Source of the DNA: Marispirochaeta aestuarii
GTDB taxonomy: Bacteria > Spirochaetota > Spirochaetia > JC444 > Marispirochaetaceae
Assembly (NCBI RefSeq): GCF_002087085.1
Contig: NZ_MWQY01000023.1
Coordinates: 1-57,455 of the forward strand
Direction of reading: 5' to 3'
DNA: 57,455 bases
Shown: positions 7,219 to 57,455 of the stretch, piece after piece
Layout of the letters: each line of letters opens with the position of its first letter
Position numbering within the stretch: position 1 is the first letter of the stretch
Made by a program: the position numbers and the translations under genes
Notes under the pieces: model-generated
Told to the model about the DNA's origin: nothing
The model's input: only the letters and a program-made list of their open reading frames with translations
Databases searched by the model: none

Positions 7219-8592
7219 ATGAAACGACTGACAATTAGTATCTGTTTGTTGCTGTTTTTTTCGGTGCTGTGGGGTCAGTCCGTCGAGATTACCCAGATAG
7301 AAAACCGAAGCCTCCTTGTCGACGGTACCCTTGATATCTATTTTCTGCCAAGAAATGAAGAGGGTGAACCCCGGGTTCTTCCGGAGAATACGGAACCGGA
7401 ACTCTTTGTGGTGGATGGTGAAAAACGGATTCCCCAGAGAATATTAAGCCTGGAGCAGGATGCTCCGCGGAGACAGGGAATCAGTTTTCTGCTGCTCATT
7501 GACAACTCAGGTTCCATGCACGATGAGTATCTCGGGAATATGCTGCGTTTTGAGACCGCCAGATTCGCAGTGGATCAGTTCCTGCAGGATATAGATAATC
7601 CTCTGGACAGAATCGGCCTGTCCGCATTCAATACCTTCTATACTCCCCTTATTCCCGTCAGTCAGGTCTCCGCACAGTTTGAAGCGGCCCTGAATTCAAT
7701 TCAGAGACCATCGAGGGAAAACTCCTACACTGAACTCTATCGCAGCATACAGCAGGCTGCACTGGATCTGGCTGATTCCCGGGGACGGCGGGCCATCATC
7801 GTCCTTTCGGATGGAGAAAACTTTCCCTATACCCTGTCCGGGAACCCCCATCCTCTTTACGGAGAAAAGGAGTTTGATCATCAGGATGCCCTCAAGACTC
7901 TGGTGGACGAAGGCATTAGTCTTTACGCTGTTCATATCGGAGAGACGAAGGACAAACCCCTTGACGATATTGCAAGAGAAAGCGGGGGGAGAAGTTTTAC
8001 CGCGGATGACAGAGGAAATCTCATGAATGTGTATCTGACGATTCGTGATGAGATACAGCAGGAGTACAGACTGCGTTTTCGACCGCCCTACAGGGGATCC
8101 GATGTACATACGGTGGAACTGGAAATAGAAGACCAGACCTCTGTGGCCGACTACTACGTACCCCATTTCCTGGGTAAATATGCGTCTCCCCTGGGCTGGC
8201 TGGTTCTTATACCCCTGCTTATTGCAGCGGGGCTGATAGTCCTCGCTTTTCTGTATGTCTGGGAAAAACCGGCAACAGAGGCGGAAATCAATCTTCTTGC
8301 AGCCGGGAAGAATTTCTCCCCCAGAACCCGGGTGAATCTTACAAAAGAAGTAACAGTAATTGGAGCGGGGCGAAACGCAGATATGACCATAGCAGGAAAT
8401 CCTGCCATGCGTGAGTCCCATGCGACTATTGTGTTCGACAGAAATTCCGGCAACTATACGGTCAGTGCGGATGCGGAGTTCCGGGTAAACAACCGTTTAA
8501 AAAAGAGTCACACCCTGAAGAGCGGAGACGTTCTCGACTTTGACGGTACCACGGTGGTTTTTGACAGACCCCCAAAACATAAAAAAACCTGA
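7219..8592 (+). CDS. Secreted vWA domain protein with TM helix and C-terminal FHA domain
   Basis: A 457-residue protein. A signal peptide (MKRLTISICLLLFFSVLWGQ) leads into an extracytoplasmic region with a von Willebrand A domain whose MIDAS site is intact (LLLIDNSGSMHDE, DxSxS) and which includes IIVLSDGENF. A transmembrane helix (LGWLVLIPLLIAAGLIVLAF, about 327-348) precedes a cytoplasmic FHA domain (TVIGAGRNADMTI, MRESHATIV, LKSGDVLDFDG) with the canonical GR and SxxH. It would link an outside metal-dependent adhesion site to an inside phosphothreonine reader. ATG 7219 is chosen because the signal peptide begins there (GGAG upstream); the open frame runs back into the previous gene. Last gene of the run; the terminator overlaps its stop. 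Confidence 0.9.
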   Translation: MKRLTISICLLLFFSVLWGQSVEITQIENRSLLVDGTLDIYFLPRNEEGEPRVLPENTEPELFVVDGEKRIPQRILSLEQDAPRRQGISFLLLIDNSGSMHDEYLGNMLRFETARFAVDQFLQDIDNPLDRIGLSAFNTFYTPLIPVSQVSAQFEAALNSIQRPSRENSYTELYRSIQQAALDLADSRGRRAIIVLSDGENFPYTLSGNPHPLYGEKEFDHQDALKTLVDEGISLYAVHIGETKDKPLDDIARESGGRSFTADDRGNLMNVYLTIRDEIQQEYRLRFRPPYRGSDVHTVELEIEDQTSVADYYVPHFLGKYASPLGWLVLIPLLIAAGLIVLAFLYVWEKPATEAEINLLAAGKNFSPRTRVNLTKEVTVIGAGRNADMTIAGNPAMRESHATIVFDRNSGNYTVSADAEFRVNNRLKKSHTLKSGDVLDFDGTTVVFDRPPKHKKT

Positions 8593-8613
8593 GAACAATT
8601 GTTCTCAGGTTTT
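8588..8613 (+). terminator. Intrinsic terminator of the kinase/FHA operon
   Basis: CCTGAGAACAA (8588-8598) and TTGTTCTCAGG (8599-8609) form a perfect 22-bp palindrome followed by TTTT. The stop codon TGA (8590-8592) lies inside the left arm. Confidence 0.75.
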
Positions 8614-8615
8614 CC

Positions 8616-8713
8616 CTCTCCCGGACAGACTCGAGTACTTGCGGTGTTTCTGACGAAACACCTGTCGTACCGGCGTGTTGTGCGGCAGCAAAACACTCGA
8701 TAGGTTCGAGTCA
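8616..8713. repeat. Structured intergenic repeat related to the 131-bp repeat
   Basis: Contains GGTGTTTC-TGAC-GAAACACC (8643-8662), then TGTCGTAC, then a second stem using GTGTT and AACAC, all enclosed by GACTCGA (8628-8634) and TCGAGTC (about 8705-8711). The window's left-end repeat has the same plan: a stem with TGAC loop, then CCTGTCGTAC, then a second stem, with different arm sequences. Function unknown; see findings. Confidence 0.55.
8620..8634. repeat. 15-bp direct repeat of the tRNA-Asn 3' part (possible att scar)
   Basis: CCCGGACAGACTCGA at 8620-8634 is identical to 8767-8781, which lies in the T arm and acceptor 3' side of tRNA-Asn. A duplicated tRNA 3' end 147 bp beyond the gene is the pattern left by tyrosine-recombinase integration, but no integrase is present. 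Confidence 0.5.
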
Positions 8714-8716
8714 GTT

Positions 8717-8759
8717 CTGAAAAATGAAAAAGGCTATCTGAAGTAATTCAGATAGCCTT
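8717..8759 (-). terminator. Intrinsic terminator of tRNA-Asn
   Basis: AAGGCTATCTGAA (8730-8742), loop GTAA, TTCAGATAGCCTT (8747-8759): a perfect 13-bp stem. Read on the minus strand it is followed by a T-rich tract, so it ends the tRNA-Asn transcript. Confidence 0.75.
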
Positions 8760-8762
8760 ACG

Positions 8763-8835
8763 CTCCCCCGGACAGACTCGAACTGCCGACCTAGTGGTTA
8801 ACAGCCACCCGCTCTACCGACTGAGCTACAGGGGA
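8763..8835 (-). tRNA. tRNA-Asn (GTT)
   Basis: On the minus strand the sequence folds as a cloverleaf: acceptor TCCCCTG paired with the 3' CGGGGGA part, D arm GCTCAGTCGGTAGAGC, anticodon loop CTGTTAA (anticodon GTT), and T arm with GTTCGAGTC. CCA is not encoded. The 3' end is next to a duplicated 15-bp tRNA segment. Confidence 0.93.
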
Positions 8836-8887
8836 ATGTCCCAAGTGACGATGGGAAATATACATGAGGGGCAGATTACTGTCAATA

Positions 8888-9871
8888 CTATCGGTGAAAA
8901 AAATTGACCCGGTAGTGAAGTTCGTAACCGCAGGTATCGCAGCAGTATTCATCATCATTCAGTATGCGGACCCTGTAGCCATTGCGCTGAATCAGGGTCC
9001 TCCCGCAGTGGGGGCAGAGGGTATCGGCGGCAGCACCAGTATTTCCCTGGTATACGTAGGTCAGGATCTCTCCGGCCCGTTTTGTTATACTGTCCATGGA
9101 TTTCATGGCAGTTTCCGGAATTTGTGACTTGTAGTTCGGATAATACCGGCTTATGTGCAGGGGAATATTCCTGTCTATTCCTGCTATGAAACCAAGCAGG
9201 TTTTCGATTTCTTCAGGAGCATCATTTTTCCCGGGGACAATCAGAGTCGTAAGCTCCACATGACAGCGTTCTGAGGCTGTGGCAATGGATGATTTGACGG
9301 CATCGAGGTTCCCTCCGAGTTCATTTTTATAGTAATCGTGATTAAAGCTCTTGAGGTCGATATTCGCCGCGTCCATCGCCGAAAAAAGCTCTTCAGCGGC
9401 CCCTGTATTGACCATGCCGTTGGTTACAATAACGTTGGCAATTCCCGCTTTTCTGGCCAGGTCTGCGCAGTCCAGGCAGAATTCAATATGCACGAGGGGC
9501 TCGGAATAGGTATAGCTGATGCTGGGGCAGCCAGCTTCACGGGCTTTTTTCACGACTTGACTGGGGCTCATATGAACGGAATTTTCCCGTACCCGCTGGG
9601 AAATCTCGTAATTCTGGCAAAAGGGACAGCGCATGTTACAGCCCCAGAACCCGATGGAAAAGCTTCTTGTCCCGGGCAGAAAATGAAAGATCGGTTTTTT
9701 TTCTATCGGATCAATACCGCCGGAGGATATTGCTCCGTAGAAGGGCAGATAGAGTTCTCCCCCACGGTTCTCCCGTACTGCACACAAGCCTCTTTTCCCT
9801 GGAGCAATTTTACAGCTGTGAGGGCAGAGAGTGCATTCCAGTATGGTATTTTGCGATACCGTGTAGGCCAC
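8888..9871 (-). CDS. amrS: AmmeMemoRadiSam-system radical SAM enzyme
   Basis: A 327-residue radical SAM protein of the AmrS/pyruvate-formate-lyase-activase-like group. The cluster motif is GCNMRCPFCQN (CxxxCxxC). An N-terminal ECTLCPHSC and GLCAVREN segment is typical of this subgroup. The C-terminus has two CxxC pairs (CPHCG and CDTCG) that may form a zinc ribbon, an extension not always present in the family. The usual AMMECR1 and Memo partners are not visible nearby, so the gene is isolated here. Substrate unknown. Confidence 0.85.
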   Translation of the reverse strand: MAYTVSQNTILECTLCPHSCKIAPGKRGLCAVRENRGGELYLPFYGAISSGGIDPIEKKPIFHFLPGTRSFSIGFWGCNMRCPFCQNYEISQRVRENSVHMSPSQVVKKAREAGCPSISYTYSEPLVHIEFCLDCADLARKAGIANVIVTNGMVNTGAAEELFSAMDAANIDLKSFNHDYYKNELGGNLDAVKSSIATASERCHVELTTLIVPGKNDAPEEIENLLGFIAGIDRNIPLHISRYYPNYKSQIPETAMKSMDSITKRAGEILTYVYQGNTGAAADTLCPHCGRTLIQRNGYRVRILNDDEYCCDTCGYELHYRVNFFHR

Positions 9872-10321: not shown

Positions 10322-11050
10322 TTATCTGGAATGGGTGGAAAGGGCCCTCTCCGCGGCGCCGGATATGTAATCGTCCAGTATTGCCCTGTCGTGGTCACTC
10401 ATCCCCATATCCAGGGTCAGGATCTTGTTGTTTCTGACAATACGGGAAGGAAAGGTGAGGATTTTATCGTCCAGCTGAAGGGAACAGTCGGAAATAACGG
10501 TATTTTCTGAAATGGTTATGGTCTTATCCGGAGAGTCAGGATAAAAACGAACGCTGTGAATACTGATATCGATAATTGCGCCGGTAATAATCGAGAAGTT
10601 GTCGGGATGGCTGAACATAAAGGAGATTTCGTCATACGCTTTCGGTGTGTAGCGTCGGTACTTTCGATCTTCGCTGAAGAGCGCGTATCTCTGGATAATC
10701 TCTTCGATGGATGATCGTATTACATGGTCTTCCTGAAGATAGGGAACCAGTCCGTTTACCTCGAGAAGCTGAGATTTGGCAGCTTCGTCTTCAGTGAAGA
10801 GATCACCTGTGAAGAGTACGCATATACCCTGATCCTTCTTTTTCATTGTCCGGTAGTATCTTACAAAGGGCTTCCAGTGCCTGGGAAAGTCCTGGGTATG
10901 AAAGATAACCAGGTCCGGCTGGATTTCCTCCAGGTTATCCATGGCTTTAACGGGATTTCTGTACTGAACAATGTCTCCCCCCCTGGAAGAAAACTGTTCC
11001 TGCAGAGGTTCCTTGAAGTTCGGATCACGGGCTACCAGTAAAACAATCAT
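10322..11050 (-). CDS. Receiver-like plus PilZ-like domain protein
   Basis: A 242-residue protein. The first 120 residues resemble a response-regulator receiver fold (MIVLLVARDPNFKEPLQEQF, and PDLVIFHT at the phospho-acceptor strand), but the Asp at the strand end is replaced, so phosphorylation is doubtful. The second half resembles PilZ: an Arg-rich start (RKYRRYTPKAYDEISF) followed by DISIHSVRFYP, which is a D-x-S-x-x-G motif with Ser in place of Gly. Cyclic-di-GMP binding is possible but weakened by these changes. Its ATG overlaps the stop of the upstream secreted protein (ATGA), showing translational coupling. Confidence 0.65.
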   Translation of the reverse strand: MIVLLVARDPNFKEPLQEQFSSRGGDIVQYRNPVKAMDNLEEIQPDLVIFHTQDFPRHWKPFVRYYRTMKKKDQGICVLFTGDLFTEDEAAKSQLLEVNGLVPYLQEDHVIRSSIEEIIQRYALFSEDRKYRRYTPKAYDEISFMFSHPDNFSIITGAIIDISIHSVRFYPDSPDKTITISENTVISDCSLQLDDKILTFPSRIVRNNKILTLDMGMSDHDRAILDDYISGAAERALSTHSR

Positions 11051-11997
11051 TCGCTTCCCAGATTGCGGACATCGTAGGATACGATCATCCAGACGCTGTC
11101 TCGTCGGTTCAGATAATAGGTAAATTCTTTTACCTCTATAAAATCGGGATTCTGAAATTTCTCGCGTACCCTCACCGTTCCCTGGGTGGGGGTATACCTG
11201 GTTTCAAGAATCTCGAAAGAAATCGGAATCAGGAGGATCTCATCCCGGGTTTCCCGGGACTGAAGTGCTTCCCTGAAGTTTTGTACCATTGAAAGACGTT
11301 CCGCTTCTGAAGACCGGTCATAGCGGCGTCGAATTTCCGGTGTTTCAAGCATGAGAGATTCCACGTTCAGATAGAGGAAAAACTTGTTCCATTCCTCCAT
11401 CTGTCGGGCCCTGATAAAGTATTCAACAACCTCGTCGGGAGGCAGAGCTTCCCTTCGCAGTATTTCTCCGGTTTCGGCGTCTATTCGCGATTCTATCCCC
11501 TGGGGGCCTTCTGAAGGGCGGACAGTGAAGGAGATAAGGTTTGACCGTAAAACATCTCCCGCTGATCTGAGCTCAGGGTAATAGAAAACCTGGGCGACAT
11601 AGGCTCCGGGTTTTTCTATGGCAATATAATCCTTCAGAGGCTCCACAAAGGAGAAGCGTTCCCCCGGTTCTATATCAATGTCCCGGTAGTAGATGTGTTG
11701 ATTCCTTTGGCGGGCCATGATAAATTGCTCTGAATGCTTGACCGGTTCATTGGTAAGAGTCGTAACGTTGAAGTCGACATTGAACCTGCGGTCATGGGCG
11801 GATTTGAAACGATACGTTTCATTTGTATTGTTGGAAATCTCGATCAGTATCTGGATCTCGCTTTCCGGATAATAAATCCGCTTATCATACAGGCGTATTG
11901 TTACATCGACACCGTTGTTATCGAGTGCTACGAGAGAGAATGGCATATAAACCGCAGCGAGAAATATAATGCAAATGAAAAATTTCTTCATAATCAT
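11047..11997 (-). CDS. Secreted protein of unknown function
   Basis: A 316-residue protein with a signal peptide (MIMKKFFICIIFLAAVYMPF, cleavage probably after VAL). The N-terminal half looks like an immunoglobulin-like beta domain (VTIRLYDKRIYYPESEIQI, then GAYVAQVFYYPEL). The C-terminal half is helical and charged and ends in a cystatin-like strand set (VREKFQNPDFIEVKEFTYYL). No catalytic motif is visible. The start could be either of the first two Met codons. It is divergent from mfd with only 32 bp between them, and is coupled to the PilZ-like gene. Confidence 0.7.
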   Translation of the reverse strand: MIMKKFFICIIFLAAVYMPFSLVALDNNGVDVTIRLYDKRIYYPESEIQILIEISNNTNETYRFKSAHDRRFNVDFNVTTLTNEPVKHSEQFIMARQRNQHIYYRDIDIEPGERFSFVEPLKDYIAIEKPGAYVAQVFYYPELRSAGDVLRSNLISFTVRPSEGPQGIESRIDAETGEILRREALPPDEVVEYFIRARQMEEWNKFFLYLNVESLMLETPEIRRRYDRSSEAERLSMVQNFREALQSRETRDEILLIPISFEILETRYTPTQGTVRVREKFQNPDFIEVKEFTYYLNRRDSVWMIVSYDVRNLGSE

Positions 11998-12029: not shown

Positions 12030-15000
12030 ATGGTAACATTATTCTTAGAAAGTACCCTGGAGAAATTAAAATCTTCCCGCCCTTACGCGGAGTTCATGCG
12101 ACACAGCGGACGGGAAGAGTATCCCATCAGGACCTACGGACCCAGGGGTTCCTTTCTCGCCGTGGTTCTTGCTGCTCTGATGCGCCAGAAAAAGAGGGCA
12201 ATTCTGTGCGTTGTGCCCTCGGAAAAGGAGGCGGAAAACCTTCTGAGGGACTGCATCTCCTTTGGTGTCCCGGCAGTCCATTTTCCCTGGTGGCAGTCAG
12301 CGCCATACAGCGAACAGCCCACCCATTCAAATGTCGCCGCCCGGCGTATTTCGATACTGAAAAACCTTCTGACGGGAGAAAAAGGGGTTATCTGTGTCTC
12401 CCTTCGGGGATACATAGGCTTTCTTCCTCCCAGGAAACTCCTGGAAGAGAACCTGATTCCCCTGAAAAAAGGTGAGAGTTTCGATCCCCAGAAAATCGAG
12501 CAGACCCTGGAGCACTGGGGGTATCTGCGGGTGCCCAGGGTTTCGTCTCCCGGCGAGTTCGCTCTGAGGGGGGAGGTTCTTGATGTCGGGATACCCGGAG
12601 GAGACGGTGAAGCCCTGAGGGTCGTATTCGAATTCGACGAAATCGAGGAGATACGGACCTTCGATGCCCTTACCCAGAGTTCTTATGGCAGCCTCGAGGA
12701 GTATTCCCTCTTTCCCGCCACCGAATTCCTGTGGGAAGAGGATGCCATGGATCGTGTTGAAGAATTCATGCGTTCCAGGCGATACCCGGGAAAGGGCGAT
12801 GAGGAGTTTCTCGAGCACCTGCGGGTAAGCCGCAGCTGCGCCTTTGATGAGATATTTTTTCCCCTGGGATTTGAAAAACCCGCGACCCTTGCGGACTACA
12901 TGCCGGCGGACGGGCTCTCCCTGTTCATCTCAGACAAGCGACTGGAGAACGCGGCGGAAGGGGTAAACAAGGAGTTTGACGAGCTGTATCGAAGGACCGT
13001 GCGGGAAAAGAAACTCTCCTTCCCTCCGCCGGATAGAATTCTGGCTTCCTATCCGGATCTGGTGGAAGGCTGCCGCAGGAAAATCATGTTCCAGTCCCTC
13101 AAGGATCAGGAAGCGGATTTAACGGTGCCCGAGATTGTCTGTCAGGATCCCAGGTCCTTCTTCGGAAATATCCAGTATCTTAAGGAGGAACTCGAACAGT
13201 ACGCAAAATCCGGATACCAGGTCTACATCTGTGCCGAGACAGAGACCCAGTCGGAGAGGATCTCGCAGCTGTTAAAGGACTACGAAGTTCATCTTTTTTC
13301 CGCCCACCTGAGCCAGGGCTTCGTGCTTCCCGAGGCAAAAATAATCCTGATCCAGGAAAACGAAATCTTCGGCCGCCGCAAAAGAGTCCCGTCTTCGGTC
13401 AAGAAAGCCCGCAGCAGGGCTATCGATACCTTTGTCGAGTTGTCCCCGGGGGACTTTGTTGTTCATGTAAACTACGGAATAGGACGTTTTAAAGGTATTG
13501 AGCGAATCCGGGCTGCCGGAACTGAACGGGACTACATTCAGCTTGAGTATGCCGGAGACGAGACGGTCTTTATTCCCATTGAACAGGTCAACCTCGTTCA
13601 GCGCTATATCGGACAGGAGGGACGTCCTCCGGCCCTTGATTCCCTGGGAGGAAAATCCTGGGAGAAGCGAAAGAACCGGGTCAGGCAGTCCGTCGAAGAT
13701 TTGGCGGACATGCTCATCGATCTGTATGCCAAACGCCAGAACGCCCAGGGCTTCTCCTACGGAGAGGATACGGACTGGCAGGTGGAATTCGAGGCCGCCT
13801 TTCCCTACGAAGAGACCACGGACCAGCTGAGCTGTATTGCCGACGTCAAGGAGGACATGGAGAGCACCCGTCCCATGGACCGGCTGATCTGCGGTGATGT
13901 GGGCTATGGTAAGACCGAGGTAGCCATGCGGGCCGCCTTCAAGGCCGTTATGGCGGGAAAACAGGTGGCGATTCTGGCCCCCACCACGATTCTGACGGAA
14001 CAGCACTACGAATCCTTCTGTGAACGCTTTGATAAATACCCGGTTACGATTCGCATGATTTCCCGTTTTGTCCACGGAAAGGAGCAGAAGCAGACCCTCA
14101 AACAGCTGTCCGAAGGGGAGGTGGATATCCTGATCGGTACTCACCGGATTCTGCAGAAGGATGTGGTATTCAAGAATCTGGGACTCATAATCGTAGACGA
14201 GGAGCAGCGTTTCGGAGTCAAGGATAAGGAGCGTCTCAAACAGCTGAAGCACACAGTGGACGCTCTGGCTCTCTCTGCGACCCCGATCCCCCGCACCCTG
14301 CACATGAGTCTCCTGAAGATACGGGACATGTCTCTGCTGACCACGCCCCCCCATAACAGACAGTCCGTGGATACCTATATCCGTGAGTTCGACGAGGAGA
14401 TGGTCGCCGCCGCCATCCGCAGAGAACTTGAACGGGGCGGACAGGTCTTCTACCTGCATAACCGGGTGGAAACCCTTCGGGAGACCCGCATGTTCCTGGA
14501 ACGCCTGGTGCCGGAGGCCCTGGTGGAGACGGCCCACGGGCAGATGAGTTCCGCAGAACTGGAAGAGGTAATGCATCGATTTATTCACGGCGCTTTTCAG
14601 GTTCTGGTTGCCACCACCATAATTGAAAACGGCATCGACATCTCGAATGTCAATACAATCATAATCGACCGGGCGGATGTATACGGCATATCACAGCTGT
14701 ATCAGCTTCGGGGGCGTGTCGGCCGTTCGGAACGCAAAGCCTATGCATATCTGCTCTATCCCGCCGACAAGGCCTTGAGCGAAATCGCCATGAAGCGCCT
14801 TCAGATCCTTTCGGACTACTCCGATCTCGGGGCGGGCTTCAAGATAGCCATGAAGGACATGGAGGTCAGGGGAGCGGGTAACCTGCTGGGACGGCAGCAG
14901 AGCGGCGAGATTGCCTCGGTGGGTTTCGATATGTATCTGCGGCTTCTTGACGAGGCTGTGGCCGAACGAAGCGAAAAAGGTGAAGAGACCAGGGAAGAAA

Positions 15001-54218: not shown

Positions 54219-54663
54219 TTGTCCTGTAAGGAATTACGTGGTATTATTGATGTGCGTGATTTTGGCTGACAGCTGATTAAATGCACGTTTTTGGGTACAC
54301 TGTAGACAAATTCAGAATAGGTAAAAATCGTTTTTAACACGGGATACCAAGAAGCACCGAAGCGCTTCTTGTCGCAGGTAGATATTATATATACTACTGT
54401 TTTTTCAGGTAGAAAGATCACATTGATTTTATTGCACAATGTGTTTCTATTTCATTGTTTCTACGTAATATTCATTTCCCGGGTTAATCGTGTGGGGGTA
54501 CCTGTGAGCAGTTTGTTATGGATAACTTATGCACTGGAAAGGGTTTCAGGATAGATAGGCAGCAGGGCAAATACTTGCTGAGTTGCTATGTTATTTAGTT
54601 GAGAAAATGTATCATTTAAAGAAAAATTATTGATCTGAAGTGAAAGTTTTATATAATGAGACG
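54219..54663. other. AT-rich non-coding gap
   Basis: No supported gene. The base composition is distinctly more AT-rich than in the window to the left. Small dyads are present: AAGAAGC/GCTTCTT (54349-54370) and CACATTG/CAATGTG (54419-54443). Short open frames on both strands have no recognisable motif. It may hold decayed mobile-element DNA next to the tRNA; no integrase remnant was identified. Confidence 0.5.
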
Positions 54664-56307
54664 ATGACAAATCGTGATATACATAAGAATATCGTTAAGA
54701 TATTGAGTCTAAGCTTAGCGCTCCTTGCGGTAACTTTTCTGGTATATGAAACCGGTGGCATTAAACATGTCTATTCTCATTCAATGTATCCGATCATCCT
54801 GCTTGCAGGGTTATGGTTCGGAGCAAAAGGCGGTATTCTTACTGCATTTATTGCAGGCCTGTTGCTCGGACCGAAAATGCCCATGGATGTAGCTACCGGA
54901 GAGATCCAGACCTTCATTAACTGGATTTTTAGGCTCTTCATTTTCATTGGTACTGGTGGGATTTGGGGCTCCATAATTGATTACCTGCGGTCTCGTCTGG
55001 ACATGTTGAAATGGGCAAGTCGACATGATCCGGAAACCGGTATTGGAACTTTATCTCTCTTTGAGGACCGTTTCTATCAGCTACAGGAAGAGTCGCCCGC
55101 GGATAAACAGATCGGAGTGTGCTTATGCTCTGTTGAAAACTATGATGAGATTGTAAGCACCTTCGGTATGAGGTCAGGAGAATCTGGCATACTTCAGTTT
55201 ACAGAGAGGGCGGGGAAGTACTGTCCGGAAGGAGCTTCTGTTTTCCTGAAACGCATGGGCAAGCTGGTCATTCTCGTTCCTGATTTTAATGAAGATATGG
55301 AAACTGAACTTGCGCCGCGGATAAGACAGATTACAGTGGAACCTTTTCATATAGACGATATCCCGATTCACTTGGAACTGTCGGTGGGATTTCATCAAAC
55401 CAAAATCGGGACTGACGATTCAGCTCTCGAGCTTGTAAGAAAGGCAACAATCGCACAGGAGGAAGCACAACGCCTCGATAGCGAGTATGTGGTGTATACA
55501 CCAGGTCTGCAGACTATACCTAAAGAAGCTATTGCTCTTATCGGAGAGCTCCGACGAGCAATAGACAAAGATGAACTCTATCTTGAATACCAGGCCAAAG
55601 TTACAGTAAATGAACATCGTCTTATCAGTGCCGAAGCTCTGGTACGCTGGAAGCACCCAGGCCTGGGGATTATCAGTCCCGGAGCATTTATTCCTTATGC
55701 AGAGAAAAGTGATCTTATAAACCCCATGACAGAATGGGTCATTGAGAAAGCACTCCTGCAGCTCAGGCAATGGCAGGAGCAGGGATTCTTTACAAAAATA
55801 GCGATCAATATCTCTACCAGAAACCTTCAAGTCGCTGGCTTTGCGGATCGCCTTAAAGAGCAGCTCGAGAAGTATAAAATCAGTCCGGAATCAATAGAGC
55901 TGGAAGTGACAGAATGGACTTTCATGAAGGATCAGCAGAATGTCCTTGAGTCGCTTGAGAAACTGTCGCAGATTCCGATCTTTCTGGCGATTGACGACTT
56001 TGGGACCGGGTATTCTTCTCTGCAGTATATTAACCGAATCCCTGGCAATTCCATAAAAATCGACAGATCCTTTATCAATCAGATCGATAATGACCCGGGT
56101 GTTTTTCAGGTTGTTCGTGCAGCTGTGAGAATCGGTCATGCCCTTGGAATGGAAGTTGTTGCCGAAGGGGTTGAAACGGATATTCAGTACAACATGGTAC
56201 AGAAAGCTCAGTGTGATGCGGTCCAGGGGTATTACATACACCGACCGAGTAGTCCCGAGGAATTATACAATCAGTATGTAGGTAAAAAAACCAAGAACGA
56301 TAATTAA
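54664..56307 (+). CDS. Cyclic-di-GMP phosphodiesterase with degenerate GGDEF and intact EAL
   Basis: A 547-residue membrane protein. About four N-terminal helices (LSLALLAVTFLVYE, PIILLAGLWFGAKGGILTAF, FINWIFRLFIFIGTGGIWG), then a GGDEF-like domain whose signature is lost (RMGKLVILV in place of R-GGDEF), then an EAL domain with intact catalytic blocks: EALVRW, NISTRNL, ELEVTEW, DDFGTGYSS, EGVET and QGYY. It should degrade cyclic di-GMP to pGpG. The start ATG 54664 is tentative; GTG 54640 is in frame. The gene lies in the AT-rich region beside tRNA-Thr and was probably acquired. Confidence 0.9.
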   Translation: MTNRDIHKNIVKILSLSLALLAVTFLVYETGGIKHVYSHSMYPIILLAGLWFGAKGGILTAFIAGLLLGPKMPMDVATGEIQTFINWIFRLFIFIGTGGIWGSIIDYLRSRLDMLKWASRHDPETGIGTLSLFEDRFYQLQEESPADKQIGVCLCSVENYDEIVSTFGMRSGESGILQFTERAGKYCPEGASVFLKRMGKLVILVPDFNEDMETELAPRIRQITVEPFHIDDIPIHLELSVGFHQTKIGTDDSALELVRKATIAQEEAQRLDSEYVVYTPGLQTIPKEAIALIGELRRAIDKDELYLEYQAKVTVNEHRLISAEALVRWKHPGLGIISPGAFIPYAEKSDLINPMTEWVIEKALLQLRQWQEQGFFTKIAINISTRNLQVAGFADRLKEQLEKYKISPESIELEVTEWTFMKDQQNVLESLEKLSQIPIFLAIDDFGTGYSSLQYINRIPGNSIKIDRSFINQIDNDPGVFQVVRAAVRIGHALGMEVVAEGVETDIQYNMVQKAQCDAVQGYYIHRPSSPEELYNQYVGKKTKNDN

Positions 56308-56334
56308 TGTTAGCTTATGAATGAATTATGCACC

Positions 56335-57030
56335 TCAGAAGACACCCGGGATTAACCGATAACGCACGCGAATCGCATAATCCCGATAGCCTGGTAATTC
56401 TTCCTGTAGAGTTTTATCTTCTAGTATAGTTCTAATAACGGTAATGATCAGTGCCACTATTACTGGAATGATTGTCCAAACAGAGCTTAAAGCAAGCACA
56501 ATGCCCGGTAGCGCTATAATATTTCCAGCATAACCAGGATGTCTTACAATCTGATATGGACCACTGTCACAAACTTTATGCTCCCGGTCCGTTTGAATAC
56601 GAACCACACTAGAGAAGAAACTGTTCACTACCAAAGCACAACCACCAATGGTGTAGCCAAGAATAATCAATATTAAGCCAGCGATATTGAGCCATAGCGG
56701 AAATACAGGTGACCACCCAAAGCGGTGATCTAGTCCTGCTGCAATAAATAACGGAAAAGTTACACTCACAGCCATTAATGGAGCAAGTACTTTATCCCAC
56801 GACTTCACATTCTGTGCTTTGCCCATTTTCCCTCGTTCTGTTAGCAATCCTGGATGCCTTTTTTCTGCCAAAATACGAGGGACGATACTCGCTACAATTA
56901 TCAATACTGAATAAAACCAACCCTGCCACCAACCGAGATCCCATCCGCTTATCACGAGAATCAATGGTATGAGGAAAAGAGTAAAAATTAATCCACCCAA
57001 ATCTTTGAGATTTACTGTGTTAGATTCCAT
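56335..57030 (-). CDS. Isoprenylcysteine methyltransferase-family protein
   Basis: A 231-residue polytopic membrane protein with about five helices. The family signature lies in the C-terminal half: GPYQIVRHPGYAGNI, then RTILEDKTLQEELPGYRDYA and RYRLIPGVF. Bacterial members methylate small lipophilic or thiol compounds; the substrate is unknown. AAGGAGG lies just upstream of ATG 57030. Immediately before it is the attC-like site, so it has the form of an integron gene cassette. Convergent with the EAL gene; an imperfect dyad (56300-56329) lies between. Confidence 0.88.
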   Translation of the reverse strand: MESNTVNLKDLGGLIFTLFLIPLILVISGWDLGWWQGWFYSVLIIVASIVPRILAEKRHPGLLTERGKMGKAQNVKSWDKVLAPLMAVSVTFPLFIAAGLDHRFGWSPVFPLWLNIAGLILIILGYTIGGCALVVNSFFSSVVRIQTDREHKVCDSGPYQIVRHPGYAGNIIALPGIVLALSSVWTIIPVIVALIITVIRTILEDKTLQEELPGYRDYAIRVRYRLIPGVF

Positions 57031-57088
57031 ACTTATTCCTCCTTATCAATTGTATATCTGCTATCTAAAAATTTGAAGATAACATTGC

Positions 57089-57203
57089 GCCTAACGTTCC
57101 GCGAATATGAGAAGTTGTCGAAGCGAAGCGCAGGCACTTTGGATGGATCCGAAGGCGGAACCACACATTCGCTCCTATGTGCTGAATCGTTCGCGCGTTA
57201 AAT
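57089..57203 (-). mobile_element. Probable integron attC recombination site
   Basis: Read on the minus strand, the site begins ATTTAAC (57203-57197, fits RYYYAAC) and ends GTTAGGC (57095-57089, fits GTTRRRY). The 115 bp between form an imperfect inverted repeat: TAACG, CGCGAA, AGCGAA and GGATCC recur in the two arms in the same order when one is reverse-complemented. The upstream ORF (deformylase fragment) ends inside the site and the next gene begins 58 bp after it, as in cassette arrays. No attI or integrase in the window. Confidence 0.7.
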
Positions 57204-57411
57204 CAAGAAAATATTTAACTGATGCTTTCTCATTAGTTTCCTCGTTGAAAACATACTCATCCGACATTCTATCGATATATAAAATCCCATCTAAATGGGC
57301 AATTTCATGCTGAAAGCACCGAGCCATTTTGTCTTTTGTTTCAACTGTATGAAACTCTCCCAATCTATCCTGATACTTGACGATAATGTTCTTAGAGCGA
57401 CTAACCCGCAT
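57175..57411 (-). pseudogene. Peptide deformylase, C-terminal fragment
   Basis: Encodes 78 residues matching the last half of peptide deformylase: VSRSKNIIVKYQDRLGEF, then ARCFQHEIAHLDGILYIDRM with the HExxH zinc motif. The first two family motifs (GxGxAAxQ and EGCLS) are missing, and an in-frame TGA lies 3 bp before the ATG. So it is truncated or frameshifted, and without the EGCLS Cys it should not be active. Its stop lies within the attC-like site. Confidence 0.75.
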
Positions 57412-57455
57412 TTCTCACAAATAAAATGAAAAAGAGGGCCTTTTTATGATAAATT

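Follow-up and report, generated by a model that had tools for sequence, protein, structure and literature searches.

A degenerate attC site of Marispirochaeta aestuarii belongs to a family that is probably served by a tyrosine recombinase without the IntI-specific domain

The window analysed here, a stretch of 57,455 nt from Marispirochaeta aestuarii, carries near its right end what on sequence grounds is a real integron attC (57180-57089, minus strand), located between a peptide deformylase (PDF) cassette and an ICMT-type methyltransferase cassette. The site sits in a CALIN-like cluster, and the recombinase of its family is most likely not a classical IntI but an enzyme from contig C12 of the same genome that lacks the IntI-specific insert and is here termed patch-less (probability roughly 0.7). 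What argues for linking the family to patch-less recombinases is their association and the anatomy of the sites. By analogy with the integrons that have been studied, the bottom strand of attC would fold as a single strand into a hairpin in vivo, a tyrosine recombinase would cut R' between G and TT, and cassettes would be excised or joined to attI. The enzyme that would catalyze these steps for the window family is the one encoded at C12:1928-2749, which has its own attI-like site and a divergent first cassette.

The window site and its family

The initial annotation had proposed an attC from two core sites on the minus strand, ATTTAAC (57203-57197) and GTTAGGC (57095-57089), that span 115 nt end to end. 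These letters were read correctly, and an open reading frame does end inside the site (PDF stop codon TAG, 57177-57175), while AAGGAGG precedes the start of the downstream ICMT-type gene at 57030. The site also proved to be a real attC by homology and structure. Its extent had to be corrected to 92 nt: the homologous R'' is ACATAGG, and ATTTAAC, 23 nt farther upstream, is part of the PDF coding sequence. The core 7-mers alone are weak evidence, since R''/R' pairs spaced 50-160 nt apart occur twice on either strand of the window. We have therefore relied on a covariance model (R1) built from 12 aligned attC-like sites, all from a second genome of the genus (G003) and with the window site excluded. 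R1 recovers 57180-57089(-) with 59.5 bits (E = 2.6e-15 for the window, 1.9e-13 for the genome), and the second-best match in the window reaches 12.1 bits. A second model, R2, gives the site 49.2 bits; it was trained in part on recombinase loci, so that its matches at those loci are non-independent, those of R1 being independent. BLAST of the window site within its order led to seven related stretches in G003, with many sites of the same layout around them. Simple searches were uninformative. A regular expression for R''/R' combined with arm matching gave zero matches anywhere, the window site included, and a pattern search of the genome was discarded after it returned one chance match against two in the reversed control. 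Against plasmids, neither the window site nor the site from a third genome of the genus (G002) had a BLAST match.

The window site shows the R''...L''...L'...R' inverted repeat with conserved secondary structure. The R' core GTTAGGC (57089..57095) contains the GTT triplet, and the recombination point is expected between G (57095) and T (57094). The L' arm CTCATATTCGC (57101..57111) pairs in the family model with the L'' arm GCGAATGTGTG (57162..57172), and this helix covaries. Covariation in the family scored 0.385 in 12 sites (0.131 when shuffled) and 0.519 in 49 sites (0.133 when shuffled), and sliding the helix partner abolishes the signal. It is strong in L''/L' and the inner helices of the 12 aligned sites, the window site not being among them. 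The G003 members of the family make up an array whose cargo varies. It is hardly conceivable that the site is a MITE or a REP-like palindrome unrelated to integrons. The sites are indeed palindromic, dispersed and repeated in G003, but cassette boundaries and arrays of varied cargo contradict this origin, as do attI-like junctions and group II introns just downstream of R'.

The introns are seated at family sites in G003, and a second kind of element may be so as well. Three near-identical group II introns (RF02012, RF00029) lie on the minus strand of locus L039 (C1:1110001-1130000) at 8177-8995, 10686-11503 and 12646-13464, directly downstream of attC R', and each contains an identical ORF of 83 amino acids. 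Their placement resembles that of group IIC-attC introns. At L038:12379, L038:15593 and L040:16625, family sites with an R' reading GTCTATG all precede much the same sequence, GTCTATGAAAAAAGTCAAGCCGACC..., pointing to a further repeated element with attC as its target. We had considered the G003 sites with R' GTCTATG or GATAGAC as marks of cassettes inserted at genomic attG; several are followed by one repeated sequence, and an element seated at attC is the likelier explanation.

A damaged R'' in the window copy

The position homologous to R'' (57174..57180) reads ACATAGG, so that AAC has become AGG and R''/R' pairing is broken. The nearest AAC is 23 nt upstream in the PDF coding sequence. In the family the AAC pairs (C, A, A) are kept in 46, 45 and 40 of 48 sites, the third column being the one with 40. 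Since these pairs are kept in most sites and altered here, the window copy looks damaged; its homology to intact sites is the reason for filing it as an attC all the same, albeit a degenerate one. With this R'' the window attC may be weak or dead. That it is a decayed copy, incompetent for recombination, with a mutated AAC and a PDF cassette that has lost its 5' half, is in our judgement only slightly short of an even chance. The altered R'' points in this direction, as does the weaker fold of the 92-nt bottom strand (-11.7 kcal/mol, against -16.8 to -25.4 kcal/mol for four family sites). The L''/L' helix and R' are intact, however, and attC sites of Treponema denticola with no identifiable AAC have been reported (PMC3607928); on these points the window copy could still recombine.

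The longer form might also be the functional one, in which case R'' would have shifted to ATTTAAC in the PDF gene (57197..57203) and CGCGAA would have taken over as L''. Folding of the 115-nt bottom strand pairs ATTTAAC with R' and gives -18.9 kcal/mol; an equally good fold was reached in only 27 of 2000 shuffles of the extra 23 nt and in none of 185 other PDF 23-mers. Against this, PDF homologues in other spirochaetes align at their C-terminus with the ATTTAAC segment, a match that places the segment outside the homologous attC, and the family model puts R'' at 57180. We regard a functional 115-nt form as unlikely, and the 92-nt attC with a degenerate R'' is kept in what follows.

The cassettes and their surroundings

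Read along the minus strand, the window holds the 3' half of the PDF gene, the attC, the ICMT-type methyltransferase cassette and then a GGDEF-EAL gene in opposite orientation. The PDF part (57175..57400, minus strand; PF01327, 58.5 bits, profile positions 103-152 of 156) ends with its stop codon inside the attC (57089..57180) and keeps the HEIAH motif; its 5' half is missing at a contig-end repeat. The next cassette carries the ICMT/PEMT-type methyltransferase (56335..57030, minus strand; PF04140/PF04191) behind a 5' leader (57031..57094). Its start, G/TTAGGCGC (the slash marks the junction), complements the R'' of the attC that follows the homologous ICMT gene in G003 at 17 of 22 positions, compared with 6-14 of 22 for 16 other sites. 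The complementarity expected of a cassette start is thus found by way of the homologous G003 site. The cassette has lost its own attC: the interval 56308..56334 is without an R1 or R2 match, and by comparison with G003 the array ends here, abutting the EAL gene (54640..56307, plus strand), which has a 75% identical orthologue in G003. The G003 homologue of the ICMT gene, also 75% identical, is directly followed by a family attC, a BrnT/BrnA-like toxin-antitoxin pair and another attC, gene names in this array being assigned by eye. Family sites also lie 4-6 kb beyond the EAL orthologue of G003, oriented like the window site, so that the EAL locus is a cassette locus common to both genomes but differing in content.

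There is no integrase gene beside the array within the window, whose contig is broken at 57401 by the contig-end repeat. The array may run on to the right, as the initial annotation had it, though the contig stops in this repeat. The PDF and ICMT cassettes are a short CALIN-like cluster beside an EAL gene. The 55-nt repeat that cuts the PDF gene (57401..57455) is identical to the ends of three other contigs, and in all four it has one orientation (window 57401-57455, C12:1-55, C29:29870-29924, C36:17387-17441). Its C12 copy lies directly against a truncated Mutator-type (IS256-like) transposase. The repeat is either the end of a multi-copy element or an assembly junction. Joining the window array to the C12 array through the shared 55-mer was considered and dropped, because in G003 the EAL orthologue (contig C4) and the recombinase array (contig C1) are on different contigs.

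Two recombinases in one genome

Treponema denticola had been brought in by the initial annotation; the host is a Marispirochaeta relative, and G002, of the same genus, is Ca. Marispirochaeta associata. The integron link proposed with it holds in part. The window genome does encode an integron integrase, a true IntI at C4:2826-4070 (TIGR02249, 393.7 bits, over the cut-off), but this gene adjoins repeats of another attC family, which makes the link of the window site to the classical IntI doubtful. With R2, no site of the window family was found within 15-20 kb of IntI in the window genome or in G003. The one further site of the family in the genome lies at C12:1319-1406(-); next to it are a small cysteine-rich gene and, in divergent orientation, a tyrosine recombinase (C12:1928-2749). 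This recombinase is Xer-like and reaches 198.6 bits with TIGR02249, below the cut-off of 265. The catalytic residues R134, K159, H223, R226, H249 and Y258 are conserved, and the IntI-specific additional domain is absent, with 15 of 56 insert columns filled. Its best solved relative is IntI4, both by sequence and by fold. An AlphaFold model of moderate quality, made from a four-row alignment (mean pLDDT 80, pTM 0.56), has IntI4 and then XerA as best fold matches; we read it as support for nothing beyond a simple tyrosine recombinase fold.

The same layout of family site, divergent patch-less recombinase and conserved attI-like site is found in the window genome, G002 and G003. The 24 nt left of the insertion point G/TT are 83-88% identical among the three, and the right side is 30-41% identical, as should be the case for an attI followed by different first cassettes. 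This attI would read roughly AAATTCGNATAA...AG/TTA. At two loci of G002 (L043:8836-9540, L044:12753-13095) a window-family attC appears to be split by a few hundred nucleotides containing a CAATTG-type attC, as though the second site were nested within the loop of the first.

IntI enzymes tolerate diverse attC sequences. The classical IntI of contig C4 might accordingly act on the window attC in trans, with another role for the patch-less recombinase. A full IntI is present in the genome, and in G002 a split family site lies close to IntI. This alternative seems rather doubtful to us, as the IntI-proximal sites in the window genome and G003 are of the other family and the patch-less genes have their own attI-like site and complementary first cassettes. 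Moreover, family sites occur in two genomes, G005 and G037, in which no IntI was matched, though both are incomplete. Our preference for the patch-less enzyme has to be held against several points. The window array is not adjacent to the recombinase, the EAL locus and the recombinase array of G003 are on separate contigs, a split copy of the family site is found near IntI in G002, and the R'' of the window copy has no AAC. In addition, the IntI-specific domain is reported to be necessary for integron recombination (PMC9668308, PMC8138268).

The family and patch-less recombinases beyond the genus

Searching named genomes with the recombinase alignment returned 80 loci. R1, trained on G003 only, places sites upstream of the recombinase and on the opposite strand in loci from spirochaetes and Patescibacteria and in unclassified loci. 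R2 adds further loci, some of them with co-directional arrays: in Breznakiella homolactica (L145, 12723-20819) and in the Spirochaetia loci L155 and L140, attC-like arrays lie downstream of the patch-less recombinases and point the same way. Among 60 relatives, a site is found within 8 kb of 8 of 18 patch-less genes and of 0 of 45 Xer-type genes (Fisher p = 1.1e-5), where the patch-less class was bounded post hoc at E 1e-50 and one split gene from G029 was added by hand. The association persists when the genus Marispirochaeta is removed (5/15 versus 0/40, p = 8.6e-4). In 8 of 12 loci the start of the first cassette agrees with its own R'' at 16-20 of 22 positions; the means against other loci are 10-12. 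AttI-like sequences recur across loci at similar spacing, the insertion points in this comparison being chosen by eye and the motif read from the listed rows. In a quick tree the recombinases of divergent arrays fall nearly all into one set of 30 rows, apart from IntI and Xer, with L148 outside. In both G005 and G037 the family site is beside a patch-less gene.

Many contigs (left ends of L077-L150) begin about 1 kb or less upstream of the patch-less recombinase, as if the assemblies broke in a repeat array. In Candidatus Gracilibacteria (L118, 10001-10768) the recombinase reads through in-frame stops, some of them at glycine positions of its relatives. Gracilibacteria read TGA as glycine, which fits these stops.

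On this evidence we lean slightly towards a clade of patch-less recombinases that would run integrons in Spirochaetota and Patescibacteria, recombining attC with an attI of their own and doing so without the IntI-specific domain. That this is so and that the attC family of such a system includes the window site is, taken jointly, a little better than an even proposition.

Comparison with known systems

The chromosomal integron attC of Treponema (the Spirochaetes-type, PMC8352920) shares with the window site the R''/L''/L'/R' layout and the G/TT junction, as well as a gene end in or at the site and usually one gene per cassette. The window R'' differs in being degenerate, the comparison with these sites being one by published description. 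Treponema integrons are co-directional (PMC3607928). With CALINs the window shares cassettes that have no adjacent integrase. In contrast to a CALIN, the same attC family adjoins, elsewhere in the genome, a recombinase that the IntI-based definition does not count. The Vibrio cholerae IntI4/IntIA (PDB 2a3v) and the C12 recombinase have in common the catalytic residues, a divergent first cassette and an attI-like site, but the IntI-specific insert is absent from the C12 enzyme. PDF cassettes are known mainly from Vibrio and also occur in CALINs (PMC12690207); here the host is a spirochaete and the gene is truncated in the window.

Implications

Taken alone, the window site is ordinary: an attC that is real, though it may be inactive, within a short cluster of cassettes. 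The system its family seems to be part of would be new as an integron variant, to judge from the sequences compared. IntegronFinder and surveys require the IntI-specific domain, which is described as necessary (PMC9668308, PMC9024848) and is taken to enable IntI to work on folded single-stranded attC (same sources). We found no description of patch-less integron integrases in the literature searched, mostly outside subscription papers, and regard the novelty as provisional. If the patch-less reading is true, some of what is classed as CALIN has an unrecognised integrase, and tools that look for IntI would file such integrons as CALINs. Integrons would then reach into Patescibacteria, run there by a different enzyme, and it would become testable which came first, attC chemistry or the IntI domain. 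The window family may thus lead to a kind of integron that has been missed in spirochaetes and Patescibacteria.
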